A stretch of 64,000 bases of DNA from Aquitalea magnusonii (GTDB lineage: Bacteria; Pseudomonadota; Gammaproteobacteria; Burkholderiales; Chromobacteriaceae): NCBI RefSeq assembly GCF_002217795.2, contig NZ_AP018823.1, positions 2,418,001 to 2,482,000 of the forward strand. Reading direction: 5' to 3'. The position numbers and the translations under genes are program-made. This document shows, in pieces, positions 152 through 36,219 of the stretch. Below the pieces are notes generated by a model that saw only the letters and a list, made by a program, of their open reading frames with translations, was not told the origin of the DNA and made no database searches. Position 1 is the first letter of the stretch; every line of letters begins with the position of its first letter.

Positions 152-1204
152 ATGAAGAAAAAAATACTGGTCATCGGCCCCTCCTGGGTGGGCGACAGCG
201 TCATGGCCCAGCCGCTATACCAGCGCCTGCACCAACGACATCCCGGCCTGGAACTGCATGTATTTGCGCCGGCCTGGACCCTGCCCCTGCTCGCACGCAT
301 GCCGGAAGTGGCCAAGGCGCATCTCAACCCTTTCGGCCACGGCGCACTGCGCCTGCGCGAGCGCTGGCAAACTGCCCGCAAACTCAAGGCCGAAGGCTTT
401 GACCAGGCCATCGTACTGCCCAACTCCATCAAATCGGCCCTGATCCCGCTCTTTGCCGGCATTCCCTTGCGGACCGGCTTCATTGGCGAATCGCGCTACT
501 GGATTCTCAATGACACCCGCGAACTGGACGAGCAGGAACTGCCGATGATGGTGGAGCGCTTCTGCGCACTGGCAGAAACCCGCAACACCCCCTTGCCTCG
601 CCCCATTGCCCATCCGGCACTGGTCACCAATCCGCAAAGCCAGCTGGAAACAGCCCGCCGCCTGCACCTGGACACCAGTCGCCCGGTGGTCGCCTTCTGT
701 CCAGGTGCCGAATATGGCCCGGCCAAACGCTGGCCGGCGCGCCACTTTGCCGAACTGGCCAAACGCTTTGCCGCTGCCGGCTTTGCCGTCTGGCTGTTCG
801 GCTCGGGCAAAGACAAGGACATCGGTGATGACATCGCCCGCCTGGCAGATGGCACAGCCATCAATCTGTGCGGCAGCACCGGACTGGAAGAAGCCATCGA
901 CCTGATGGGCCTGACCCGCCTGGCGGTGTGCAACGACTCCGGCCTGATGCACGTTGCCGCAGCCCTTGGCAAACCGCTGGTGGCGCTGTATGGCTCCTCC
1001 AGCCCGGACTTCACCCCGCCGCTATCGGATCAGGCCGCCGTGGTCAGCCTCAATCTGGACTGCAGCCCCTGTTTCGAACGGAAATGCCCCTATCAGCACA
1101 CCAATTGTCTGGAACAATTGGGGCCAGAGATGGCATGGCAGGCCGCGCTGCGCTTTCTGCCCGAGCTGGGCCACTCCACCATTCAACTTACCCGCAGCAC
1201 ATAG
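152..1204 (+). CDS. waaF: ADP-heptose:LPS heptosyltransferase II
   Basis: This 350-aa GT-B glycosyltransferase (family GT9) adds the second L-glycero-D-manno-heptose to the inner core of lipopolysaccharide on the cytoplasmic side of the inner membrane. The N-terminus (MKKKILVIGPSWVGDSVMAQ) is the family signature and its length matches E. coli WaaF (about 348 aa). The C-terminal half carries the nucleotide-sugar part, including the FCPGAEYGPAKRWP and NDSGLMHVAAALGKP segments. I chose the ATG at 152, preceded by a purine-rich GGAAGCGGA, over an in-frame TTG at 74 because the latter adds 26 residues without family similarity and would lie inside the preceding terminator region. The TetR gene starts 9 bases after the stop, so the two may be cotranscribed. 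Confidence 0.95.
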   Translation: MKKKILVIGPSWVGDSVMAQPLYQRLHQRHPGLELHVFAPAWTLPLLARMPEVAKAHLNPFGHGALRLRERWQTARKLKAEGFDQAIVLPNSIKSALIPLFAGIPLRTGFIGESRYWILNDTRELDEQELPMMVERFCALAETRNTPLPRPIAHPALVTNPQSQLETARRLHLDTSRPVVAFCPGAEYGPAKRWPARHFAELAKRFAAAGFAVWLFGSGKDKDIGDDIARLADGTAINLCGSTGLEEAIDLMGLTRLAVCNDSGLMHVAAALGKPLVALYGSSSPDFTPPLSDQAAVVSLNLDCSPCFERKCPYQHTNCLEQLGPEMAWQAALRFLPELGHSTIQLTRST

Positions 1205-6517: not shown

Positions 6518-7351
6518 ATGCAACCACGCCTCGAACTGATTCATGAGGCAGCAACAGGGACGGCGCGCCAAGCGCCGCCCCTTTTGTTTGTCCACGGCGC
6601 ATTCTGTGCCGCCTGGTGCTGGCAGGAAGCCTTCCTGCCCTGGTTTGCCCGCCAGGGCTACGACTGCTGGGCGCTCAGCCTGGAAGGACATGGCGACAGC
6701 GACGGCCACCAATACCTGGCGGCCATCAGCATAGACGACTATGTGAGCAATCTGAGTGCGGCGGTCAAGCGCATCAAGCGTACGCCCATCATGATTGGCC
6801 ACTCGATGGGGGGCTTCGTCCTACAGCAATACCTGACCCGTCAGCGCCTGCCGGCTGCCGCCTTCCTGGCATCAGTGCCGCCTACCGGGCTGGCCAGCTC
6901 CAGCCTGCGCCTGCTGACCCAGGCACCGGCCTTGCTGCTGAACCTGAATCGATACCAGCAAGGCAATTACAATCCGGCTCAGGATGAGCTGCGCGACTTG
7001 CTGCTGTCGGCGGATGCGCCTGCCAACATCACGGCATTGCTGGTGGAAAAGTGCCAACTGGAAAGTCAGCGCGCGGTGATGGACATGACCTTGGTCAATC
7101 CCTTGGGGATAGCGGCCATCCCGCCGTTACCGGCCCTGGTGCTGGGGGCGGCCGAGGACATGCTGATCTCACCGCAGGATGTGGTGGCAACAGCAGAGCG
7201 ACTGGATGTACATGCGGAAATCCTGCCGCATATGGGTCATATGATGATGCTGGACACGCACTGGGAACGCACGGCAGAGCGCCTGCTGCAGTGGCTGGAG
7301 CAGTTACCGCCCGAGGTGCTTGCCGCGTCCCCCAGCCATGCCACGGCCTGA
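6518..7351 (+). CDS. Alpha/beta hydrolase
   Basis: This 277-aa alpha/beta hydrolase has the oxyanion segment LLFVHGAFCAAWCW, the nucleophile elbow GHSMGG at about residue 95, an acidic residue near LGAAEDMLISP and the catalytic His in HMGHMMMLD. The substrate is unknown. I prefer the ATG at 6518 with GGAGAG 12 bases upstream. An in-frame ATG at 6494 would overlap the PhoH gene by 20 bases and adds only eight residues. A terminator follows, so this is the last gene of the unit. Confidence 0.85.
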   Translation: MQPRLELIHEAATGTARQAPPLLFVHGAFCAAWCWQEAFLPWFARQGYDCWALSLEGHGDSDGHQYLAAISIDDYVSNLSAAVKRIKRTPIMIGHSMGGFVLQQYLTRQRLPAAAFLASVPPTGLASSSLRLLTQAPALLLNLNRYQQGNYNPAQDELRDLLLSADAPANITALLVEKCQLESQRAVMDMTLVNPLGIAAIPPLPALVLGAAEDMLISPQDVVATAERLDVHAEILPHMGHMMMLDTHWERTAERLLQWLEQLPPEVLAASPSHATA

Positions 7352-24409: not shown

Positions 24410-25198
24410 ATGAAAACTACCAAGATTGCTGCCCTGCTGCTGGCTGCCTCCATCAGCATTCCGGCCATGGCCGAATCCATTGCCATGGTTAATGGCAAGT
24501 CCATTGACAAGACTGATCTGGACAATGCGGTGGCTGTTGTCGTGCAAAACAGCAATGGCAATGTGCAGGATTCCCCCGCGCTGCGCCAGCAAGTAAAAGA
24601 CACCCTGATCAACCGTGAAGTCATCCTGCAAGAAGCCCAGAGCCGCAAGCTGGACCAGCAGCCCGCCTTCATCAAGCGCATGGAAGAAGTCCGCCAGGAC
24701 ATGCTGCGCGAAGCGCTGTTTGCCGACCTGGTGAAAAACATGCAGATCAGCGATGCACAGCTGCAAGAACGCTACAACCAGACCCAAAGCAAGTTTGCCG
24801 GCACCAAGGACGTCCACGCACGCCAGATTACCGTGGCCAGCGAAGCCGATGCGCTCAAGATCATCGACAGCCTGAAAAAGGGTGCCAAGTTCGAAGACCT
24901 GGCCAAGAGCCGTTCGCTGGATCCGGCTGCCAAGCAAAATGGCGGCGACATGGGCTGGGGCAATCTGGCCCGCATGGAACCTCAACTGGCCGAGCTGCTG
25001 AAAGACCTGAAGAAAGGCCAGTACAGCAGCAAGCCGATGCAAACCCGCGTGGGCTGGATCGTATTCAAGGTAGATGATATCCGCGATGCCAAACTGCCGC
25101 CGCTGGCTGAAGTAAAACCGCAAATCGAGCGCCAACTGCAGGAAGAAGCCATTGCCAAGGCAGTGGAAGATCTGCGCAGCAAGGCGAAAATCCAGTAA
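24410..25198 (+). CDS. Periplasmic parvulin-type PPIase/chaperone, probably catalytically altered
   Basis: This 262-aa exported protein begins with a signal peptide (MKTTKIAALLLAASISIPAMA, cleavage probably after AMA). It has a SurA-like helical N-terminal region and a parvulin domain at about residues 130-235. The strand that normally reads HARHILV is HARQITV here, so the conserved second histidine of the parvulin active site is replaced by Gln, while NGGDMGWG is kept. It may act more as a chaperone than an isomerase. It forms a tandem with the next gene, which retains the histidine. Confidence 0.9.
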   Translation: MKTTKIAALLLAASISIPAMAESIAMVNGKSIDKTDLDNAVAVVVQNSNGNVQDSPALRQQVKDTLINREVILQEAQSRKLDQQPAFIKRMEEVRQDMLREALFADLVKNMQISDAQLQERYNQTQSKFAGTKDVHARQITVASEADALKIIDSLKKGAKFEDLAKSRSLDPAAKQNGGDMGWGNLARMEPQLAELLKDLKKGQYSSKPMQTRVGWIVFKVDDIRDAKLPPLAEVKPQIERQLQEEAIAKAVEDLRSKAKIQ

Positions 25199-25232
25199 CA
25201 CCACACCACAGTAACAACAGGAAACCAACATC

Positions 25233-26015
25233 ATGCGCAAGACTTTGCTGGCAAGCGCCCTGCTGGCCGCTCTGAGCACCTCTGCCGTCTTTGCTGCCGG
25301 CCCGTCCGTCAATGGCACCGAAATCTCCCCCGCCCGCATCGACGCCGTGGTGCAGATGATGGCAGCCCAAGGCCAGGCAGCCGATGACAAGACCAAGGAC
25401 ATGGTCAAGGATCAACTGATCACCGCCGAAGTGCTGCGTCAGGAAGCCATCAAGAAAGGCATCGACAAGACTGCCGACTTCAAGGCCGAACTGCAGAACA
25501 TGGAAGCCATGGCGCTGGCCAACCGTGTCATCAAGGACTTCCAGAAAGCCAACCCGGTAACGGACGAGCAACTGAAGGCTGAGTATGACAAGCTGGTGGC
25601 TACCGTGCCGGAAACCAAGCAATACCATGCCCGCCACATTCTGGTTGGCAGCGAAGCCGAAGCCAAGGCCGTGATCGAAGCCCTGCGCAAGGGCAAGGCT
25701 TTCGACCTGCTGGCCAAGGAAAAATCCAAGGATCCGGGCAGCAAGGGTAACGGTGGCGATCTGGGCTGGCAGGAAGCCGGCACCTTCGTACCGGAGTTCT
25801 CTGACGCCATGGCCAAGCTGAGCAAGGGCCAGGTTACTGCCAAACCGGTGAAAACCCAGTTTGGCTGGCACGTGATCAAGCTGGACGATGTCCGCACCGA
25901 GCGCAATGTGCCGTCGCTGGACGATGCCCGTCCGCAACTGACCCAGCGCATCATGGGCGCTCGCATCGAGAAATACGTTGGCGAGCTGAAAGCCCAGGCC
26001 AAGATCCAGCAGTAA
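25233..26015 (+). CDS. Periplasmic peptidyl-prolyl cis-trans isomerase, parvulin type
   Basis: This 260-aa paralogue of the preceding gene has the same layout: signal peptide MRKTLLASALLAALSTSAVFA, helical N-terminal half and parvulin domain (about 130-235) with the intact YHARHILVGSEAEA strand and the conserved GNGGDLGWQEAGTFVPEFSDA. It resembles PpiC/PrsA/SurA-type folding factors for outer-membrane proteins. A terminator 29 bases later ends the unit. Confidence 0.93.
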   Translation: MRKTLLASALLAALSTSAVFAAGPSVNGTEISPARIDAVVQMMAAQGQAADDKTKDMVKDQLITAEVLRQEAIKKGIDKTADFKAELQNMEAMALANRVIKDFQKANPVTDEQLKAEYDKLVATVPETKQYHARHILVGSEAEAKAVIEALRKGKAFDLLAKEKSKDPGSKGNGGDLGWQEAGTFVPEFSDAMAKLSKGQVTAKPVKTQFGWHVIKLDDVRTERNVPSLDDARPQLTQRIMGARIEKYVGELKAQAKIQQ

Positions 26016-26043
26016 ACGCGCAGTCTGCCATCAGCGCTGCAAC

Positions 26044-26068
26044 AGGGATGCCTCGGCATCCCTTTTTC
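26044..26068 (+). terminator. Rho-independent terminator
   Basis: AGGGATGC pairs with GCATCCCT around CTCG, followed by five T. It closes the parvulin unit and separates it from the lipid operon. Confidence 0.85.
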
Positions 26069-26352
26069 TTTGCCTGTGCGCCGGATGATCTGGCCCCATG
26101 CCGGTCAGCACACAGGCACCCACTTCCGCTTCCGCTCCCCCATCCGTGCAGTAACACCAGGGGCGATCTCACCGGGCAAGCCGGCCTGGTATGCCAATAC
26201 ATTCCCTTGCCTGGCCGCCCCCGGCCGTCGGGCCTAAGTAAAAACCGCAAAATACCGCGACCATTTGCCCCTGCTGGCTGCGACTGTCAAAATCCGTTTG
26301 TCATCATTTCTTTCCCGCGTGCAGGGTGGCCTGCCGCAACGATCCACTTTCC
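26069..26352 (+). promoter_or_regulatory. Leader of the lipid operon, promoter not identifiable
   Basis: These 284 bases must hold the promoter of the ynb-like operon. I find no convincing -35/-10 pair, operator palindrome, tRNA or riboswitch-like structure. Short open frames here have no ribosome binding site. Confidence 0.35.
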
Positions 26353-26961
26353 ATGCCAAGTATTTACGATCTCAAATCCCGCTTTCAAAACTTGCTGCGT
26401 CCGCTGTTGAAATCCCTGGTCCGTGGCGGCGTCACTGCCAATCAGGTCACACTGAGCGCCATGCTCGGCTCCATCGCCTACGGCCTCTGGCTATGGCTGG
26501 ACTCCTCCCGGCCACTGGCATGGCTGCTGCTGCCCTTGTTTCTGTTCCTACGCATGGCACTGAACGCCATCGACGGCATGCTGGCGCGTGAATTTGGCCA
26601 GCAATCACGTCTTGGCGGCATTCTTAACGAAGTGGGCGATGTGGTCTCCGACGCCGCACTTTATCTCCCCTTTGCCGTACTGAGCACCCATCCCGCGCTG
26701 GTGGTGCTGGCCGTACTGCTCGCGCTGCTGACCGAATTCGTCGGCGTGCTCGGGCCCGCGCTTGGCGCGACACGCCGTTACGACGGGCCGATGGGCAAGA
26801 GCGACCGTGCCTTCTGGTATGGCGCCTTCGCACTGCTGGTGGGCTTGATGCCCACCACCGCCGCTTACGCTGACTGGCTGTTCGGCCTCACCGCACTCCT
26901 GATGTTGCTGACTGTATTCAACCGCGCCCGCGCCATTCTGAAAGAAAGCCGCCATGTTTAA
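26353..26961 (+). CDS. ynbA: CDP-alcohol phosphatidyltransferase, YnbA-like
   Basis: This 202-aa integral membrane enzyme transfers a phosphatidyl group from CDP-diacylglycerol to an alcohol. The catalytic motif is in AIDGMLAREFGQQSRLGG and the following ILNEVGD. It matches D-G-x2-A-R-x8-G-x3-D-x3-D except that the third acidic position is Asn, which I recall also in E. coli YnbA. Length and layout agree with YnbA (about 201 aa). It opens a six-gene operon: its 3' end overlaps the CDP-DAG synthase start by 8 bases. The alcohol acceptor is unknown. I chose ATG 26353 because the protein from there aligns with relatives. Confidence 0.85.
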   Translation: MPSIYDLKSRFQNLLRPLLKSLVRGGVTANQVTLSAMLGSIAYGLWLWLDSSRPLAWLLLPLFLFLRMALNAIDGMLAREFGQQSRLGGILNEVGDVVSDAALYLPFAVLSTHPALVVLAVLLALLTEFVGVLGPALGATRRYDGPMGKSDRAFWYGAFALLVGLMPTTAAYADWLFGLTALLMLLTVFNRARAILKESRHV

Positions 26962-27901
26962 GTTGCTGTTGCCGCCACCGCTCCTGTGGGCGCTGGGCGG
27001 TGTCTTTGTCCTGCTGGTGCTGGCCAGCGTTGCCATCCGCGTGCTGGAAGCGCGCAAGCCGGAAAAAAACTGGCTGGAACTGAAACTGCGGATCAAGACC
27101 TGGTGGTGGATTGTCGGCTGCTTCTCGCTCACCCTGCTGGGCAGCGTCCCGCTGGCGCTGGTGGTATTTGCGCTGATCAGCTTCCTGGCGCTCAAGGAAT
27201 ACCTGACGCTGTGCGCCACGCGCACCGCAGACCACGTGGTGCTGTTCTGGGCCTATCTGAGCATTCCGCTGCAGTACTACTGGCTGGGCATTCACTGGTA
27301 CGGCATGTTCATCATTTTCATCCCGGTTTACATCTTCCTGTTTGTGCCCATGCGCATGGTGCTGATTGGCGAGACGCAGGGCTTTCTTAAAGCGGCGGCC
27401 TCGCTGCAATGGGGCCTGATGATCAGCGTGTTCTGCCTGAGCCACATGGCGGCGGTGCTGACCCTGCCGCAACTGACCGGCATCGGCGTACCGGCGCAGG
27501 GGGCGATGATGCTGTTTTACCTGGTGGCACTGACCCAGTTGAACGATGTGGCGCAGTACCTGTGGGGCAAGTCCTTTGGCAAACGCAAGATTGCCCCCAA
27601 GGTATCACCCAACAAGACTCTGGCAGGACTGCTTGGCGGGGTATTGACCACCGGCCTGCTCGGCTGGCTGCTCGGCCCCCTGCTCACCCCATTCAGTCCG
27701 CAGCATGCCGCACTGGCAGGTTTGCTGATCGGCTCCATGGGTTTTATCGGTGACATCGTGATTTCAGCGGTGAAGCGTGACATCGGCGTCAAGGATTCCG
27801 GTCGTCTACTGCCGGGCCACGGCGGCATTCTGGACCGCCTGGACTCGCTCACTTATACCGCACCGCTGTTTTTCCACTACGTACACTACCTGTACTTCTA
27901 A
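26954..27901 (+). CDS. ynbB: CDP-diacylglycerol synthase family protein, YnbB-like
   Basis: This 315-aa multi-pass membrane cytidylyltransferase makes CDP-diacylglycerol from phosphatidate and CTP. The conserved C-terminal region includes KVSPNKTLAGLLGG, the SPxKTxxG motif, then DIVISAVKRDIGVKDSGRLL and GHGGILDRLDSLT, the CdsA signature with the metal-binding Asp residues. It is of the YnbB type, so this is probably a second, dedicated CDP-DAG source beside the housekeeping CdsA elsewhere. It supplies the substrate of the adjacent YnbA-like enzyme. Confidence 0.9.
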   Translation: MFKLLLPPPLLWALGGVFVLLVLASVAIRVLEARKPEKNWLELKLRIKTWWWIVGCFSLTLLGSVPLALVVFALISFLALKEYLTLCATRTADHVVLFWAYLSIPLQYYWLGIHWYGMFIIFIPVYIFLFVPMRMVLIGETQGFLKAAASLQWGLMISVFCLSHMAAVLTLPQLTGIGVPAQGAMMLFYLVALTQLNDVAQYLWGKSFGKRKIAPKVSPNKTLAGLLGGVLTTGLLGWLLGPLLTPFSPQHAALAGLLIGSMGFIGDIVISAVKRDIGVKDSGRLLPGHGGILDRLDSLTYTAPLFFHYVHYLYF

Positions 27902-27908
27902 GCGCCTT

Positions 27909-28562
27909 ATGAACAAGCTGCTGCGTATTCTCTTTGTCATGCTGCTGGCACGCCCGGTGGTGCGCCTGTGGCTAGGGATGACAGTACGGCATCAGGAACG
28001 GCTGCCCACCGCCGGCCCTGCCATCGTCATTGCCAACCACAACAGCCACCTGGACATTCTGGCGCTCTACAGCCTGTTTCCCTTGGGGCTGATCCCGCGC
28101 GTGCGCCCCGCCGCCGCGGCGGATTACTTTCTGAAAAACCGCTGGATGGCCTGGTTCGCCACCAATGTGGTGGGCATCATCCCGGTGGTGCGCGGCGGCG
28201 TGGGCGCAGGCCGTGACCCGCTGGCCGGCTGCCGGCAGGCACTGCAAGCGGGCGAGATTCTGGTGCTGTTTCCCGAAGGCACACGTGGTGAGCCAGAAGC
28301 GCTGTCTGAAATCAAAGCCGGCATCTGGTACCTGCTACGTGATTTCCCCGACATCCCGGTCGCGCCGGTGTACCTGCACGGCCTGGGCCGGGCGATGGGC
28401 CGTGGTCAGTGGCTGCCGGTCCCCTTCTTTGTCGATGTCGCCATAGGACGCTCCCTGTGCTGGCAAGAGAACAAAGACAGCTTCCGCGCGCATATTCGCG
28501 ACACTTTTTTGCAGTTAAAACAAAAAACCCTGCCCGCCGAACCTGGCCCGGACAGCCACTGA
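27909..28562 (+). CDS. 1-acyl-glycerol-3-phosphate acyltransferase-like protein (PlsC family)
   Basis: This 217-aa membrane-associated acyltransferase has the catalytic HxxxxD motif in ANHNSHLDILAL (about residue 41) and the substrate motif FPEGTRGEPEALSE at about residue 120. It should acylate a lysophospholipid or lysophosphatidate. It begins 7 bases after the CDP-DAG synthase stop. I do not recall a PlsC gene in the E. coli ynbABCD operon, so this insertion is notable; it could provide a special phosphatidate for the pathway. The open frame extends further upstream, but the ATG at 27909 follows the previous stop and gives the family N-terminus. Confidence 0.88.
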   Translation: MNKLLRILFVMLLARPVVRLWLGMTVRHQERLPTAGPAIVIANHNSHLDILALYSLFPLGLIPRVRPAAAADYFLKNRWMAWFATNVVGIIPVVRGGVGAGRDPLAGCRQALQAGEILVLFPEGTRGEPEALSEIKAGIWYLLRDFPDIPVAPVYLHGLGRAMGRGQWLPVPFFVDVAIGRSLCWQENKDSFRAHIRDTFLQLKQKTLPAEPGPDSH

Positions 28563-28586
28563 CAAGAAAACTGAAAGGTCTCTGCC

Positions 28587-30377
28587 ATGCGACAAGCCCT
28601 GGAATCCCGCTTCACCAGTTTCGATGGACAAGCGCTGTTCTACCGCCACTGGCCGGCCATCACCACGCCGGCACAGCGCGCCATCCTGCTATTGCATCGC
28701 GGCCACGAGCACTCCGGCCGCTTACAGCATGTGGTGGACGAACTTGACCTAGCAGATACACCGGTATTCGCCTGGGATGCACGCGGCCACGGCCGCAACG
28801 ACGGACCGCGCGGCTTCAGTCCCAGCATCGGCACCACGATTCGTGATCTGGAAGAGTTTGTCCGTCATCTGCAAGCGGAGCACGGCGTGCGGATTGACCA
28901 GTTGATCGTCATTGCGCAAAGCGTGGGCGCGGTACTGGCGGCAAGCTGGGTGCATGATTACGCGCCGCGCCTGCGCGCGCTGATCCTGGCTGCGCCGGCC
29001 TTCAAGGTAAAGCTGTACGTGCCTTTCGCTCGCCCCAGCCTGCGCCTGATGCACAAGCTGCGCGGCAATTTCTTCGTCAATTCCTATGTGAAGGCCAAGT
29101 TCCTGACCCACGATGCAGAGCGCATCGCCTCCTACAACAGCGACCCGCTGATCACCCGGCCCATCTCGGCCAACATCCTGCTGGCCCTTTACGACACCGC
29201 CGAGCGCATCATCGCCGACGCCGGTGCCATTACCGTGCCGACGCAGTTGCTGATCTCCGGCGCGGATTTCGTCGTACACAAGGCCCCGCAGGAAACCTTT
29301 TTCCAGAATCTGGGCAGCCCGTGCAAGGAGCGCCACGAGCTGCCCGGTTTCTATCACGACACACTGGGCGAGCGCGACCGCGCACTGGCCTTCGACAAGA
29401 TACGCGCCTTCATCCAGCGCGTGGAAGCCGGCGTAGCCAGACCCTCGCTGCTGGCAGCCGACCAGCACGGCTACACCGCCCAGGAATTCAATCGCCTGCA
29501 ACAGCCGCTGCCCGCCCTGTCGCCCAAGCGCTGGAACTTCGCCCTCACCCGCCTGACGCTGGCTACGCTGGGCCGGCTGTCCGACGGCATCCGGCTAGGC
29601 TGGCAAACCGGTTTCGATTCCGGCAGCACGCTGGACTACGTTTACCGCAACCAAGCCTCCGGCATCACGCCGCTAGGCCGGCTGGGCGACCGCGTCTATC
29701 TGGACAGCATTGGCTGGCGTGGCATCCGCCAGCGCAAACTGCACCTGCAGGAGCTGATCTCGCTGGCCGTCTTGGAATTGGAGCAAGCCGGCATGCCGGT
29801 GCGGCTGGTGGACATCGCCGCCGGCCATGGCCGCTACGTGCTGGATGCACTCTCCACCAACGCCGACCGCGTCGAACACCTGCAACTGCGCGACTACAGC
29901 GACATCAACGTCAGCGCCGGACGCAAGCTGATCGCGCAACGCGGCTTGCAAGGCAAAGCACGCTTCGATCAGGGCGATGCCTTCGACGGGGCCGATCTCG
30001 CCGCACTACAGCCACGCCCCACGCTGGCCATTGTCTCCGGCCTGTATGAACTGTTTCCCGGCAACGCCGGCATTCGCGACTCGCTGGCTGGTCTAGCCGC
30101 CGCTGTGCCGGCAGGCGGCTATCTCGTCTACACCAATCAACCCTGGCATCCCCAACTGGAGATGATTGCCCGCACGCTCACCAGCCATCGCGGCGGCAGC
30201 GACTGGGTGATGCGACGCCGCACCCAAGAAGAGATGGATCAACTGGTTGCCGCGGCGGGTTTCGAGAAAATCTGCCAGCGCATCGACGAATGGGGCATTT
30301 TCAGCGTGACCATCGCGCGCCGCCTGCACGCCACGCCGCACCAGAGGCAAACCGTGCAGGCACAAGCCACGGCATGA
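28587..30377 (+). CDS. ynbC: Alpha/beta hydrolase-SAM methyltransferase fusion, YnbC-like
   Basis: This 596-aa fusion has an N-terminal alpha/beta hydrolase (about residues 1-285) of the monoacylglycerol-lipase type. It shows LLLHRGHEHSGR, the nucleophile elbow in IAQSVGAVLAA and the late His in LPGFYHDTLGE. The C-terminal class I methyltransferase (about 330-585) has its SAM-binding loop in VRLVDIAAGHGRYVLDAL. The combination and length match E. coli YnbC (about 585 aa). Plausible roles are deacylation and methylation of a lipid head group or lyso-intermediate. It overlaps the next gene by 4 bases (ATGA). Confidence 0.88.
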   Translation: MRQALESRFTSFDGQALFYRHWPAITTPAQRAILLLHRGHEHSGRLQHVVDELDLADTPVFAWDARGHGRNDGPRGFSPSIGTTIRDLEEFVRHLQAEHGVRIDQLIVIAQSVGAVLAASWVHDYAPRLRALILAAPAFKVKLYVPFARPSLRLMHKLRGNFFVNSYVKAKFLTHDAERIASYNSDPLITRPISANILLALYDTAERIIADAGAITVPTQLLISGADFVVHKAPQETFFQNLGSPCKERHELPGFYHDTLGERDRALAFDKIRAFIQRVEAGVARPSLLAADQHGYTAQEFNRLQQPLPALSPKRWNFALTRLTLATLGRLSDGIRLGWQTGFDSGSTLDYVYRNQASGITPLGRLGDRVYLDSIGWRGIRQRKLHLQELISLAVLELEQAGMPVRLVDIAAGHGRYVLDALSTNADRVEHLQLRDYSDINVSAGRKLIAQRGLQGKARFDQGDAFDGADLAALQPRPTLAIVSGLYELFPGNAGIRDSLAGLAAAVPAGGYLVYTNQPWHPQLEMIARTLTSHRGGSDWVMRRRTQEEMDQLVAAAGFEKICQRIDEWGIFSVTIARRLHATPHQRQTVQAQATA

Positions 30378-31702
30378 GCCCGCCCACCAACCGTCGCCAG
30401 TGGCCCGAAGCCCTGCAGTGGCTGGCGCTGCTTGGTCCGGCTTTCTTCTTGCTATACGGGGCGGCCAATCACTACGCCGCCAGTCTGCCGCCATCGGCAG
30501 TGGGCAATATCGCCATGGACTGGGAACGGCGCATCCCGCTGTGGCCGTGGACCATCCTACCCTACTGGAGCATCGATCTCCTCTACGGCCTGTCGCTGTT
30601 CATTTGCAGCAGCCGGGAGGAGTTGCGCCGACATGCGCTGCGGCTGCTGAGCGTCACCGTGCTCTCCTGCCTGCTGTTTGCGCTGTTTCCGCTGCGCTTT
30701 GGCTTTGAGCGCCCGCCGCTGAACGGATGGGCGGGCCAGTTATTCACCCTGCTGGCTGGCTTTGACAAGCCCTTCAATCAGGCACCTTCGCTGCACATCA
30801 GCCTGCTGACGGTGTTGTGGCTACGCTATGCAGTACACACGCCGCAGCGTTGGCGCTGGCTGCTGCATGGCTGGTTCGCGCTGATCGGCATATCGGTACT
30901 GACCACCTGGCAGCATCACTTTCTCGACATCCCCACCGGTTTCGCCCTGGGCATCGTCGTGTGTTATCTGCTCCCCATGCCACTGCCGCCTTATAGCCGG
31001 GTGGCGGAGATCGAACAGACACGCCGCCGCCAGTTGAGCAGGCCTTATGCAGTGGGCGGGCTGGCGCTGACCCTGGCCGCCAGTTGGCTTGGCGGCTGGT
31101 ACTGGCTGCTGCTTTGGCCGGCACTGAGCCTGATCCTGCTGGCGGTCGGCTATGGCCGCCTTGGTGCCGGCGTATGGCAAAAAGTCGCAGGCCAGCACAG
31201 GCTGCCCGCACGCTGCCTGTTTCTGCCCTTGACGCTGTTCATGCGGCAGATACATGCCCGGTTGTTGCGTGGACATTCACATGCCAGTTTGATTGCAGAC
31301 GATGTCTGGATAGGCCCGGCCATTGCTGCCCGTGAAACATGCTTTCACAGCGTGCTGGACCTGGCGGCGGAATACTGCCGTCAGGCACACCCGGCAGCAC
31401 ACTATGTGGATTTGCCGCTGCTGGATTTACTCCTGCCAGATCGCGCCGGAATGCACAATGCAGTCGCACAACTGGAAGCCCTGCGGCATTCTCGCCCAGG
31501 CCCGATCCTGGTCCATTGCGCACTGGGCATGAGCCGCAGCGCGGCGGTGATCATGGCCTGGCTGGTGATGACGGGACGCTGTAGCGATCTGGCGCAGGCC
31601 AAACAAATCCTGCAGGCTCAGGGCCGCAAGATTGTGCTGTCACCGCAGCAATGGCACTGGATCCAGACCTGTTGCACCCCAGGAGACGCTCATGCTGCCT
31701 GA
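30374..31702 (+). CDS. ynbD: PAP2-like membrane domain fused to dual-specificity phosphatase, YnbD-like
   Basis: This 442-aa fusion has an N-terminal multi-pass PAP2-type phosphatase domain with APSLHISLLTVLWLR and QHHFLDIPTGFALG as the motif 2 and 3 regions; it has SLH where classic PAP2 has SGH. A C-terminal dual-specificity/tyrosine phosphatase domain carries the P-loop VHCALGMSRSAAVIMAW near residue 380. Architecture and length match E. coli YnbD (about 430 aa). By analogy with PTPMT1-type PGP phosphatases, the C-terminal domain may dephosphorylate a phosphatidyl-alcohol phosphate. I chose ATG 30374, which overlaps the previous stop. Confidence 0.88.
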   Translation: MSPPTNRRQWPEALQWLALLGPAFFLLYGAANHYAASLPPSAVGNIAMDWERRIPLWPWTILPYWSIDLLYGLSLFICSSREELRRHALRLLSVTVLSCLLFALFPLRFGFERPPLNGWAGQLFTLLAGFDKPFNQAPSLHISLLTVLWLRYAVHTPQRWRWLLHGWFALIGISVLTTWQHHFLDIPTGFALGIVVCYLLPMPLPPYSRVAEIEQTRRRQLSRPYAVGGLALTLAASWLGGWYWLLLWPALSLILLAVGYGRLGAGVWQKVAGQHRLPARCLFLPLTLFMRQIHARLLRGHSHASLIADDVWIGPAIAARETCFHSVLDLAAEYCRQAHPAAHYVDLPLLDLLLPDRAGMHNAVAQLEALRHSRPGPILVHCALGMSRSAAVIMAWLVMTGRCSDLAQAKQILQAQGRKIVLSPQQWHWIQTCCTPGDAHAA

Positions 31703-32081
31703 GACAGCAACCCTCCGCCTGCATGCCGCGGCCTTGCGCAGCACCCGCTGGCTGCTCTGGCCCGGCCCCTGCCTGCTACTGCTGGCCAGTATTCAGGCTG
31801 GCGAATGGCGGCTACAGACCGCTGCCGCCCTCGCCATGCTGTTGCAAAGCTGGTTCTGCTGGCGCTTGCAATTGGATGCGGCGCTACTGGCAGCACTCGA
31901 AAATGCCCCGTCACTGACAGTGCTGGATGACACGATTCATGGCTTGTTTGGCAAAGCCGCAGCAGGACGTGACTTTGGGCAGAGACAACAAGGCATGCGG
32001 CGCTTGTTAATCCGCTTCTTCATGACAACTGCCTTGTGCTGGCTACTGGCCATCTGCGCCATGATGCTGCCCATGATCTAG
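31692..32081 (+). CDS. Small membrane protein of unknown function, lipid operon
   Basis: This 129-aa protein has a hydrophobic hairpin at about residues 20-60 (WLLWPGPCLLLLASI and AAALAMLLQSWFCWRL) and another helix at the C-terminus (ALCWLLAICAMMLPMI). The stretch between them is soluble and charged. It overlaps the 3' end of the ynbD-like gene by 11 bases and has AGGAG 6 bases before the ATG, so it is clearly a gene of this operon. I do not recognise a family. It could be an accessory subunit of the lipid enzymes. Confidence 0.75.
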   Translation: MLPETATLRLHAAALRSTRWLLWPGPCLLLLASIQAGEWRLQTAAALAMLLQSWFCWRLQLDAALLAALENAPSLTVLDDTIHGLFGKAAAGRDFGQRQQGMRRLLIRFFMTTALCWLLAICAMMLPMI

Positions 32082-32225
32082 CAAAATGGCATCCTTCCGC
32101 TCACCATCCCGGTCGCGGCGGGGTGGCAAGGGACAAGCCCACCGTACAAATGGGTGATTTTGTTCAATACCGTCCAGGCCGGGCAGCCTATCTTCGAACA
32201 CTCTTCCCACCCATCGAGGATAGAC

Positions 32226-32807
32226 ATGCAAGCCCTGCTTTCCATGGCCGCCTTTGCGCTGGCCTCCTCCATTTCTCCCGGCCCGGTGAATATCGTGGCA
32301 TTCGGCTGCGGTGCCAGCCATGGCTTCCTGCCCAGTCTGCGTCATGTCAGCGGTGCCACCATTGGTTTTACCCTGTTGTTTCTGCTGACCGGACTTGGTC
32401 TGGCCGAGCTGCTGGACGACCTGCCGGCGGCACGCGGACTGATCCAGTTAGCCGGCGTGGCCTTCTTGTTATACCTGGCATGGAAGCTGGCCAGCGACCA
32501 AGGCGAACTGGGAGACGCAAGACAACGGCCATCATTCCGGCACGGTGCGCTGATGCAATGGCTGAATCCCAAGGCCTGGCTGGCCTCACTGGCCGGCATG
32601 GGGGCGTTTGCCAGCCATGGCGATGCCCTGCTGGTATGGCGTTTTGCCGCCATCTATTTTGTCATCTGCTACCTGTCGATTGCCTGCTGGGCCTGGGCCG
32701 GCGCACGCCTGCAACAGCATCTGCGCCAGCCGGCACGCATGCGCTTGTTTAACCGGCTGCTGGCGGTGTTGCTGGCCGGCAGTGCGCTATATCTGCTGCT
32801 GGATTGA
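32226..32807 (+). CDS. LysE/RhtB family exporter
   Basis: This 193-aa inner-membrane protein with about six helices has the LysE-family N-terminus (ASSISPGPVNIVAFGCGASHG) and QWLNPKAWLASLAGMGAF, the NPKAW motif. Such proteins export amino acids or small metabolites. The ATG at 32226 has a GAGG-type site upstream and gives the family start. Its stop lies one base from the stop of the convergent AraC-type gene, which may regulate it, although LysE regulators are usually divergent. Confidence 0.9.
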   Translation: MQALLSMAAFALASSISPGPVNIVAFGCGASHGFLPSLRHVSGATIGFTLLFLLTGLGLAELLDDLPAARGLIQLAGVAFLLYLAWKLASDQGELGDARQRPSFRHGALMQWLNPKAWLASLAGMGAFASHGDALLVWRFAAIYFVICYLSIACWAWAGARLQQHLRQPARMRLFNRLLAVLLAGSALYLLLD

Positions 32808-33717: not shown

Positions 33718-36219
33718 TCAAACCTGCTGTGCGCGCAGCAGGGCTTCAAAGGCATCAGCCGGCACCGGTTTGCTGAACAGATAACCCTGACCGCAGTGGC
33801 AGCCCTGCTCCACCAGGAAACGGCGCTGTTCGTCCAGCTCCACCCCTTCGGCCACCAGGTCCAGCCCCAGGCTGCGGGCAATCGAGATGATGGCCTGGGT
33901 GATGGCGGCATCGTCACGGTCCTGGTGCAGGTCCATGATGAAGCTCTGGTCAATCTTCAAGCCGCGCACCGGCAGTCGCTTCAGATAGGACAGGCTGGAA
34001 TAGCCGGTGCCGAAGTCGTCGATGGACAGATAGATGCCCAGCGCCTGCAGGCGGTGCAACACTTCCACCATGCCGCTGTCTTCATCCATCGCCACGCTTT
34101 CGGTGATTTCCAGCTCCAGCGCACTGCTGGGCAGCGCATAGCGTTCCAGCATACAGGCCACGGTATCGACAATGCTGGAATACTTCAGCTGCCGGCCGGA
34201 CACGTTCACCGCAATACGCCCTTGCAACAGCCCGGCATCGCGCCAGCGGCGGATGGCAGCGCAACTGCTGTCCAGCACCCACTCGCCAATGCTGGTAATC
34301 AGAGAACTTTCCTCGGCAATCGGGATGAACTGCGCCGGCGAAATCAGGCCCATGTCCGGGTGTCGCCAGCGCAGCAAGGCTTCGGCACCGATGATGCGGC
34401 CGGACGACAGCTCCACCTTGGGCTGATACCACACCTCCAGCTCATTCTGTGCCAGCGCACGGTGCAGGCTGTATTCCATCTTCAGCCGTTCGATGGCACG
34501 GGCATTCATGTCGGCAGTGTAAAACTGGAAATTGTTCTTGCCGCGCTCCTTGGCCCGGTACATGGCGGTGTCGGCATTCACCAGCAGGGCATCGGCCATG
34601 GCACCGTCTTCCGGGAACATGCTGATGCCGATGCTGGCCGAAATGAACACGCCCTGCCCGGCCACGGTGGATTCGGCGGAGATGGCATCCAGAATGCTCT
34701 GCGCCCGGCTGGCCACCTGCTGCACGGTGACAATGTTTTCCAGCAGCACGGTGAATTCGTCGCCGGACAGGCGGGCCACGGTGGACAGATTGGGGGCAAT
34801 GCGCTGCAGCTCGCTGGCAATGCGCACCAGCAGTTCGTCACCTGCATGGTGGCCCAGGGTGTCGTTCACCATCTTGAAGCGGTCAAGATCGATGAACAGC
34901 AAGGCAAAGCGGCGATCATACTGGCGCGCCTGCTCTACCGCCGACTGCAGTTTTTCGATGAACAGCGTGCGGTTGGGCAGGCCGGTCAGCGCATCGTGGT
35001 TGGCCAGGAAATGCAGCCGCTCCTCGGCCTGCTTGCGTTGGGTGATGTCGGAAAACACCGCCACATAATGCAGGCATTCGCCGCGCTCATCGCGAATGGC
35101 GGTAATGCTCAGGTGTTCGGTGTACAGCAGGCCGTTCTTGCGGCGGTTGATCACCTCGCCTTGCCAGGCACCGTCATTGCGCAGGCAACGCCACAGGTAT
35201 TCATAAAATTCTGGCGATTGCTTGCCGGACTTGAGCAGGGCCGGCGTCTTGCCGATGGCTTCTTCCCGGCTGTAGCCGGTAATGCGGGTGAAGGCAGGAT
35301 TGACCGACTGGATAAAGCCATTGCCATCGGTAATGACAATGCCTTCCATGGTGGCTTCAAACACCTTGTCGGCCAGCAACAGGCTTTGGCGCGACTGCAC
35401 CAGCGCCTCGTCGCGCTCGCGCAGCGCGCCATGCAGTTCCAGCAGGAACTCATGCTCTATGCTTTGGATGATTTCACGAAAACCAATGATATGAGCCAGT
35501 CGGTGTTCGGCATCGAATACCGCCAGATGGCGGATCTGGTGCTGCAGGATGACGCGGCGGGCCTGCAACAGGCTGGTGCTGACCGAAACGCCAATCACCG
35601 GCCGGGTACAGATATCGCCCAGCTCGGCCTGGCCCCGGCCAGAAGCGACCAGTCCAACCACATCGCGCTGGGTGAGGATGCCATAGCTGCCATCGGCAAA
35701 CTGTACGCCGATGGCAGTCAGCTCCTGCTCACGCATGCTGGCCAGCGCTGCCGCCAGGCTATCACTGGACTGCAGCACCACAACCGGCTTGGCCTGGATG
35801 CCGTCCAGTCTTTTCAGACCGAGAAAAGCCTCGGTCCCCTGGCACAGCACCACATCGGACAGCGACACCAGGCCGATGATTTTGCCTTGTTTTTCCACCA
35901 GGGCATGACGGATGGCATTGTTACGAAACTGGCCCACCACATCATGCACGCTCATATGATGCGGCAAGGTGACGACGGGTGTGCTCATCACCTCACGAAT
36001 GGGCAGACAGCGGGAAGTTTCGTCGGACAGATCGACCGATAGCGCATCGGTTTCAGTCCAGATACCAATGGCCTGCTCCGCAGAATTGAATACCACAATG
36101 GACCCGCAGCCGCTTTCCATCATCATGGCTGCTGCTTCGCGAACCAGGGTCTCCGGTGAGCAACTGAGAATATCAGTCGAGGCAATCTGCTCTATGGGCT
36201 GCATCAACGGAGACATCAT
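33718..36219 (-). CDS. Cyclic-di-GMP signalling protein: CBS pairs-PAS-GGDEF-EAL
   Basis: This 833-aa soluble protein opens with two Bateman modules, about four CBS motifs in residues 10-250 (IREVMSTPVVTLPHHMSVHDVV and GDICTRPVIGVSVSTSLLQA are two). A PAS domain lies at about 275-395 (NPAFTRITGYSREEAIGKTP). The GGDEF domain (about 400-565) has SGDEF in place of GGDEF. The C-terminal EAL domain (about 580-830) shows GAEALLRWRHP, ELEITESVAMDE and DDFGTGYSSLSYLKRLP, all expected for an active phosphodiesterase. CBS domains usually bind adenine nucleotides, so energy charge may set c-di-GMP turnover. It is divergent from the hydrogenase operon. Confidence 0.92.
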   Translation of the reverse strand: MMSPLMQPIEQIASTDILSCSPETLVREAAAMMMESGCGSIVVFNSAEQAIGIWTETDALSVDLSDETSRCLPIREVMSTPVVTLPHHMSVHDVVGQFRNNAIRHALVEKQGKIIGLVSLSDVVLCQGTEAFLGLKRLDGIQAKPVVVLQSSDSLAAALASMREQELTAIGVQFADGSYGILTQRDVVGLVASGRGQAELGDICTRPVIGVSVSTSLLQARRVILQHQIRHLAVFDAEHRLAHIIGFREIIQSIEHEFLLELHGALRERDEALVQSRQSLLLADKVFEATMEGIVITDGNGFIQSVNPAFTRITGYSREEAIGKTPALLKSGKQSPEFYEYLWRCLRNDGAWQGEVINRRKNGLLYTEHLSITAIRDERGECLHYVAVFSDITQRKQAEERLHFLANHDALTGLPNRTLFIEKLQSAVEQARQYDRRFALLFIDLDRFKMVNDTLGHHAGDELLVRIASELQRIAPNLSTVARLSGDEFTVLLENIVTVQQVASRAQSILDAISAESTVAGQGVFISASIGISMFPEDGAMADALLVNADTAMYRAKERGKNNFQFYTADMNARAIERLKMEYSLHRALAQNELEVWYQPKVELSSGRIIGAEALLRWRHPDMGLISPAQFIPIAEESSLITSIGEWVLDSSCAAIRRWRDAGLLQGRIAVNVSGRQLKYSSIVDTVACMLERYALPSSALELEITESVAMDEDSGMVEVLHRLQALGIYLSIDDFGTGYSSLSYLKRLPVRGLKIDQSFIMDLHQDRDDAAITQAIISIARSLGLDLVAEGVELDEQRRFLVEQGCHCGQGYLFSKPVPADAFEALLRAQQV

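Follow-up and report, generated by a model that had tools for sequence, protein, structure and literature searches.

Within a 64,000-nucleotide stretch of the Aquitalea magnusonii genome (contig NZ_AP018823.1, positions 2,418,001 to 2,482,000; hereafter, the window), six tightly packed genes on the plus strand at 26353-32081, here designated A to F, make up a real, conserved and mobile lipid cassette of the kind represented by ynbABCD of Escherichia coli, with one enzyme, A, of an odd class. A is of the CDP-alcohol phosphotransferase type, B of the CDP-diacylglycerol (CDP-DAG) synthase type and C of the PlsC acyltransferase type; D fuses a hydrolase to a methyltransferase, E fuses a PAP2-type membrane domain to a dual-specificity phosphatase (DSP) domain, and F is a small membrane protein. 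What the analysis shows directly is the gene content and its conservation, the modular build and mobility of the cassette, and the state of its motifs. The chemistry that we propose for the six genes, a self-contained, horizontally mobile pathway for a dedicated minor phospholipid, strikes us as evenly poised between right and wrong. An earlier note, made from the DNA alone, had assigned these identities, and the open reading frames (ORFs) and Pfam matches agree with it (Table 1), the intergenic gaps from A to F being -8, +7, +24, -4 and -11 bases. In the portions of the open-licence PubMed Central (PMC) literature available to us, from which all papers below are cited by PMC number, no description was found of the six-gene set, of F or of the altered metal motif of A.

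Gene presence was scored by stop-to-stop frame searches in two surveys, an even draw of 398 Pseudomonadota genomes, with PF12147 as the marker of D, and the best 80 named loci, picked by likeness to D, of at least 509 confirmed candidates. PF12147 was present in 27 of the 398 genomes, and the loci of 26 of them (all but G000, the single-contig genome of the window) were taken for gene content. All six genes were found in 22 of these 26 loci, 18 times in the order A-D-E-F-C-B and once with B-C divergent, while three of the 22 carry an extra, more distant PlsC-like gene upstream. The four incomplete loci consist of A, D, E and F without B and C nearby (two), A-D (one) and A-D-C-B (one). Among the best 80 named loci (77 from Pseudomonadota, two from Acidobacteriota and one from Myxococcota), 69 are complete, and in six of the other 11 one side is shorter than 5 kb; since these loci were chosen by likeness to D, the draw of 398 genomes provides the fairer count. 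The six genes recur together in three phyla, Pseudomonadota, Acidobacteriota (L041) and Myxococcota (L036), so that chance co-occurrence is not an issue. The earlier note had described plsC as inserted and the 129-residue gene as extending the E. coli set. These counts reverse that view, as both genes are standard, and the genome-neighbourhood survey that the note had suggested indeed finds both usually accompanying ynbABCD-type genes. The dedicated acyl composition that the note drew from these two genes is only a possibility.

The pairing of the genes was followed in a set of 104 loci in which D is flanked by 5 kb or more at both ends, made up of both surveys, nearer relatives and E. coli, in which 92 loci are complete (90 of 102 after merging two double-counted loci). 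E and F are both present in 97 loci, E occurs alone in four, neither occurs in three, and F is never found without E; wherever both are present they are adjacent (97 of 97). Likewise, B and C are both present in 96 loci and adjacent in all 96, with B alone in four, neither in four and C never without B. In loci of the Burkholderia type, B-C runs divergently from A-D-E-F, and in genome G242 E and F lie paired about 43 kb away from A-D-C-B. A profile of A matched 51 of the 398 genomes at E ≤ 1e-10, 37 strongly (>150 bits) and 14 only weakly. The genomes with D account for 27 of the 37; the other 10 have an A-B-C trio (eight), a broken A-B (one) or A alone (one). The distant, weakly matching type of A stands in a trio in eight of the nine genomes examined out of 15 weak matches, and three plasmids carry annotated A-B-C trios, one with an extra small gene inside. 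Pseudanabaena combines A-B-C with a methyltransferase domain without the hydrolase, and a Fusobacterium record has D-A-B without C. From the stand-alone trios and the Pseudanabaena, Fusobacterium and G242 layouts we conclude that the core is usually A-B-C, that D is often added to it and that E and F form a unit. A conserved seventh gene was sought and rejected, the unlabelled neighbours of D clustering in at most 18 of 85 loci and having no fixed place except in the flanks of the Pseudomonas lineage; around 19 stand-alone A-B-C trios, no neighbour cluster reaches three loci.

The oddity of A lies in its metal site. The family signature, D1xxD2G1xxAR..G2xxxD3xxxD4, reads N71xxD74G75xxAR..G88xxxN92xxxD96 in A, Asn replacing the first and third aspartates, a change that the earlier note had overlooked, together with the loss of two basic residues from the PAP2 motifs of E. 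D1 and D3 are Asn in all 112 A loci (110 distinct sequences), none being canonical. Outside the operon the same holds for nine of 10 strong and nine of nine weak A proteins, as well as for all nine plasmid-collection copies read; the only strong exception is a solitary A (L257 in genome G325, 6764-7321) with Ala at D1 and Asn at D3. Asp stands at these positions in the aligned phosphatidylinositol phosphate (PIP) synthase, AF2299, phosphatidylserine synthase (PSS) and cholinephosphotransferase, and in two further CDP-alcohol phosphotransferases of G000, both with the canonical motif. According to the PIP synthase paper, all eight signature residues are absolutely conserved, D1 to D3 binding metal and D4 being the likely base (PMC4634129), and in Methanocaldococcus jannaschii PSS Asp41 (D1) and Asp62 (D3) contact both metals (PMC8633023).

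The rest of the A site is kept. D2, D4 (D96), both glycines, E80, E93, D100, R152 and R191 are invariant in 33 rows, and a GPx[GA]KxxR motif is present in 112 of 112 loci. In an alignment read by eye at low identity, R152 and R191 coincide with R155 and R195 of Mycobacterium tuberculosis PIP synthase, which are held to bind the phosphate of the acceptor, whereas the positions matching its S132 and K135, located near the sulfate and the inositol ring (PMC4634129), hold Gly in 100 percent and 92 percent, respectively, of 83 rows. Moreover, inositol-1-phosphate synthase (Ino1, PF01658) has no match in G000. The retained arginines point to an acceptor that is phosphorylated, and the two glycines and the lack of Ino1 to one that is probably other than inositol phosphate. 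Against the NCBIfam model of PIP synthase A reaches 50.5 bits (cut-off 170), fewer than its 82 bits against archaetidylinositol phosphate synthase.

F, in turn, is tied to E. With a profile trained on the surveyed loci, 103 of 103 hits of at least 20 bits lie beside E and none elsewhere in 20,414 frames. Because of that training the whole-genome test, in which at most 10 candidates were scored per genome, matters more: F was found in 26 of the 398 genomes, all 26 among the 27 with D (Fisher p 6e-40, related genomes not being independent). A profile built from Pseudomonas members only recovered 64 of 73 non-training members at 1e-3, matched the close relative of the window, L014, at 9e-4, missed L017 and L027 and hit no other frame; one built from Chromobacteriaceae and Iodobacter reached 52 of 95 others. 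An alignment of 40 F sequences shows no variation at D62, D79 and R98 and very little at R58, R93 and G101. The AlphaFold2 model of F (mean confidence score, pLDDT, 92.6) has five helices, and the helix limits would place the conserved charges near helix ends or in linkers. F of the window has no sequence match in Pfam, NCBIfam or PADLOC, and a Foldseek search with its model returned nothing at E ≤ 0.001, hits to PDB and viral structures starting only at E 0.5; when 40 members were scanned, one matched DUF4118 at 3e-4 and no family matched more than two. F probably represents an undescribed protein family, an absent match being no proof of novelty, and offers a tractable small membrane protein with a clear partner.

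In E itself the DSP site is intact, C382x5R388 and D351 being invariant in 81 rows, with the HCX5R loop and fold present, and in the PAP2 part His141 of motif C2 and His181 and Asp185 of motif C3 are invariant in 38 rows. The PAP2 part matches PF14378 (PAP2_3) at 26.7 bits, slightly under the cut-off of 27; a structure search of E was filled with hits to the DSP domain and says nothing on the PAP2 fold. Counting helices in the model of E puts the DSP domain on the side opposite to the PAP2 site, and basic loop residues (11 vs 5) weakly favour a cytoplasmic location for it.

The remaining proteins retain the features expected of their families. The C-terminal CdsA block occurs as a looser pattern in 106 of 107 B proteins and as the strict PROSITE pattern in 14 of 107; G000 has a separate CdsA (G000:C1:2091934-2092713), making B its second. 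Both acyltransferase motifs of C, HX4D and EGTR, are intact; of the 101 C frames above 150 bits, all have NHxSHxD and 99 have PEGTR. The lipase part of D matches a monoacylglycerol lipase profile (3e-23), and a putative catalytic triad, unchanged across seven sequences, is made up of the AQS serine, D227 and H257. The methyltransferase part carries the motif DIAAGxGRY; its relatives in the PDB are weak (best 0.0069), and its substrate class is not readable from them.

E. coli K-12 MG1655 ynbABCD (b1408-b1411) comprises orthologues of A, B, D and E only, C and F being absent. In a quick LG+G4 tree of D, built from the 78 of 120 rows that remained after thinning and with SH-aLRT as the only support measure, E. 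coli YnbC groups with Citrobacter and E. coli plasmid copies with support 100. Its nearest relative lies on a Citrobacter plasmid with A-B-C-D-E-F, beside Tn3-family transposase and recombinase genes, F being recognised there at 16.7 bits (E 3e-4). Since six genes are usual elsewhere and the nearest relative of YnbC has all six, we regard the E. coli operon as a reduced form; loss of C and F from the E. coli chromosome is the simplest reading, although gain by the plasmid is possible from one gene tree. The chromosomal operon matches 4,579 of 5,426 complete E. coli genomes, covering at least 80 percent of its length in 4,242, while the plasmid A-B-C-D stretch does so in three of the 5,426; in the one E. 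coli plasmid copy inspected, E is truncated and IS66-family genes lie downstream.

PF12147 occurs in eight of 41 relatives searched and in four of 10 Aquitalea genomes, G000 included, one of the genomes being only 61 percent complete. In Aquitalea genome G003, which lacks PF12147, the parvulin and LysE-type flanking genes are adjacent and 25 bases replace window positions 26077-32150; this clean empty site indicates that the cassette was gained or lost as a block. Four genomes without the operon (G002, G004, G006 and G007) and one with the operon elsewhere (G009) match the window only to about 26017 over the 4-4.5 kb compared. No integrase was seen among the cassette flanks. A phage origin was considered and rejected: the matches to B in 15 phage records are all partial, covering <50 percent of the protein.

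In the pathway that we favour, C would acylate lysophosphatidate to phosphatidate, which B would convert into a private CDP-DAG pool, and A would pass the phosphatidyl group to a small phosphorylated alcohol, other than inositol phosphate, at its hydroxyl. The DSP domain of E would then strip the terminal phosphate, probably on the cytoplasmic side, and the PAP2-type domain, probably facing the periplasm, may act on the head group by further transfer or hydrolysis, with F as a dedicated partner subunit of E. The methyltransferase of D would methylate the lipid, either at the head group or on an acyl chain, and the lipase part of D may take off an acyl chain that C could restore. The activities, the order of the steps, the topology and the nature of the lipid are those that we infer. 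That the active sites are intact in C, in D and in the DSP domain supports the pathway, whose outline, from phosphatidate through CDP-DAG, transfer and dephosphorylation to methylation or deacylation, had been anticipated in the earlier note and gains support from the kept arginines of A, the CX5R site of E and gain or loss as a block. The note was also correct in regarding the lipid of ynb-type operons as not established: in the excerpts seen, no function had yet been ascribed to YnbD (PMC7413402), and the YnbA reaction had been removed from EcoCyc as unsupported (PMC3781023). In the same literature, a persistence study includes YnbC among the genes in which a substitution was seen (PMC13313352), YnbB is described as dispensable for ECA-PG (PMC8609368), and ynbA figures in a table within one paper's section on genes that affect c-di-GMP levels (PMC13031359).

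Several observations weigh against this pathway. In M. jannaschii PSS every signature-residue change tried, to Ser or Asn, cut or abolished activity (PMC8633023), so that an Asn/Asn A might be without activity or have a different one, and its best NCBIfam match, archaetidylinositol phosphate synthase (82 bits, cut-off 180), names no substrate. The PAP2 part of E lacks the C1 lysine (by KX6RP spacing, P106 stands there) and the C3 arginine (V175). An SRX5HX3D-like string does occur somewhere in 26 of 112 E frames; position 175 being Val in 38 of 38 aligned rows, these strings are taken to lie elsewhere in the frame. Even when induced, E. coli YnbD gave no complementation of strains deficient in phosphatidylglycerophosphate (PGP) phosphatase or undecaprenyl pyrophosphate phosphatase (PMC7413402), which suggests either that its substrate is neither compound or that YnbD needs F. 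The cassette contains no kinase or phospho-alcohol synthase, leaving the acceptor unexplained. Finally, on a Kosakonia cowanii plasmid (L215, 1436-7161) a Methyltransf_20 relative, 47 percent identical over D residues 196-580, stands beside acyl carrier protein, ketosynthase, MaoC and FabG genes, and these fatty-acid-type neighbours imply that the methylated group may be the acyl chain.

The cassette could instead remodel or degrade existing phospholipid, with D deacylating, C reacylating, E dephosphorylating and an Asn/Asn A binding or hydrolysing CDP-DAG rather than acting as a transferase. The uniform Asn at D1 and D3, the lipase-type D and the two phosphatase-type domains of E fit such a role, but the base D4, D2, both glycines and both acceptor arginines of A are invariant, and C and B, which would build CDP-DAG, accompany A where D, E and F are missing; we consider remodelling rather unlikely. 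Alternatively, the cassette could serve the synthesis of MPIase or a related glycolipid, B making N-acetylglucosamine-pyrophosphate-diacylglycerol and the other genes supplying or tailoring the lipid part. Overproduced E. coli YnbB is reported to synthesise that compound. Overproduction of YnbB raised MPIase and YnbB did not complement a cdsA knockout (PMC6362211; PMC7018664), and MPIase was not significantly changed in a ynbB knockout (PMC6362211; review PMC7018664). The cassette has no glycosyltransferase, is patchy within Aquitalea and keeps A and C as the constant partners of B, making a glycolipid role unlikely.

The cassette might also be a mobile island that promotes fitness or protects the envelope, its lipid being important chiefly under stress, possibly in connection with phage or toxin exposure. 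Plasmid copies near transposase genes, the clean empty site and TerD genes beside one trio accord with this idea; the six proteins gave no PADLOC match at E ≤ 0.01, no defence gene is found among recurrent neighbours, and the idea names a selective role and not a chemistry, so that as an explanation we judge it quite unlikely. Very unlikely, in our view, is a backup route to ordinary phosphatidylglycerol, in which A would make PGP and E would dephosphorylate it in the manner of PTPMT1. PTPMT1 is a PGP phosphatase with a DSP domain, as found in E, and A does belong to the CDP-alcohol phosphotransferases. However, A scores only 22 bits against the PgsA model (cut-off 109), the host has two canonical members of the family, D would lack a role, and YnbD failed in the PGP-phosphatase-deficient strain (PMC7413402).

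Going beyond the single pathway, we tentatively suggest, as a possibility that may well prove wrong, that the A proteins are a separate, widespread phosphotransferase class in five bacterial phyla that dispenses with the two metal-bridging aspartates and, served by a dedicated CDP-DAG synthase and in most cases a dedicated acyltransferase, would make an undescribed phospholipid, which in Pseudomonadota the PAP2-DSP protein, an obligate small subunit (F) and the lipase-methyltransferase would finish. If A works, a textbook catalytic motif is broken and a CDP-alcohol phosphotransferase is seen to cope with fewer acidic metal ligands. The ynbABCD operon, present in most complete E. coli genomes, has no assigned product in the accessible portions of the open-licence PMC literature. 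E. coli YnbA to YnbD would be an incomplete version, and work on them alone may fail for want of PlsC and F; the six-gene set provides a defined object for expression and for the search for a new lipid.

Table 1. Features of the cassette and its borders in window coordinates (D domain limits in residues)
Feature	Position	Strand	Description
Gene A (ynbA type)	26353..26961	+	202 aa, CDP-alcohol phosphotransferase; PF01066 36 bits, cut-off 22
Gene B (ynbB type)	26954..27901	+	315 aa, CDP-diacylglycerol synthase, CdsA-like; PF01148 223 bits
Gene C	27909..28562	+	217 aa, PlsC/LPLAT-type acyltransferase; PF01553 80 bits
Gene D (ynbC type)	28587..30377	+	596 aa, hydrolase-methyltransferase; PF12146 228 bits and PF12147 473 bits
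Gene D domains	~1-270; ~273-579		monoglyceride-lipase-like hydrolase; class I S-adenosylmethionine (SAM) methyltransferase
Gene E (ynbD type)	30374..31702	+	442 aa, PAP2-type membrane domain then DSP domain; PF00782 44.8 bits, cut-off 33.5
Gene F	31692..32081	+	129-aa helical membrane protein, no Pfam family
Cassette extent	26077..32150		segment absent from Aquitalea genome G003 (blastn vs window)
Terminator-like hairpin	26044..26063	+	between upstream parvulin gene and cassette; weak by itself

Around the cassette, two neighbouring parvulin-type peptidyl-prolyl isomerase genes lie right upstream (window 24410-26015), and a similar pair is found in cassette-free Aquitalea relatives. Terminator-like sites numbered 11 against 7.0 expected, and no RNA element was found in 25800-32400 at E ≤ 0.1. 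Downstream, an 833-aa ORF on the minus strand (33718-36219) presumably encodes a CBS-PAS-GGDEF-EAL protein, judging its motifs by eye. Elsewhere, the flanks of Pseudomonas cassettes look GlyQ-, GlyS- and GyrB-like by eye, and membrane proteins that look alike adjoin two stand-alone A-B-C trios (L252, 9036-9719; L253, 858-1397). On a Pseudomonas sp. FeN3W plasmid (L165, 3938-8137) an A-C-B trio follows a short way downstream of a pair of TerD-family genes, from which a single hypothetical gene separates it. In a Moraxella osloensis plasmid copy (L166, 6953-8275) A and the start of D share one open frame, a possible A-D fusion, the operon copy being otherwise interrupted; the same copy was rejected as an example of a split-off methyltransferase beside a patatin, as it is decayed, and was not used. 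Genome G029 has a D relative at 41 percent identity, the other five genes being absent within 10 kb around it.

Compared with known systems, the cassette is closest to E. coli K-12 ynbABCD, an operon that likewise includes orthologues of A (46 percent identical), B (50 percent), D (60 percent) and E (39 percent) and whose YnbA shares the Asn/Asn motif; unlike that chromosomal operon, the window cassette has C and F. B has PF01148 and the C-terminal active-site block in common with CdsA and YnbB, but travels with A and C. E shares the catalytic His/His/Asp of C2 and C3 with PAP2 proteins such as PgpB and differs from them by Val in place of the C3 Arg, the missing C1 Lys and the fused DSP domain; presumably it also resembles Aur1-type transferases, an assumption drawn from the below-cut-off PF14378 match. 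Its DSP domain stands behind a membrane PAP2 domain, in contrast to other dual-specificity phosphatases, including PTPMT1. By profile, the nearest solved sequences to A are PIP synthases (1.6e-10), with which it shares both phosphate-binding arginines and from which it differs in having Asn at D1 and D3, mostly Gly at the S132 and K135 positions, and a host genome without Ino1.

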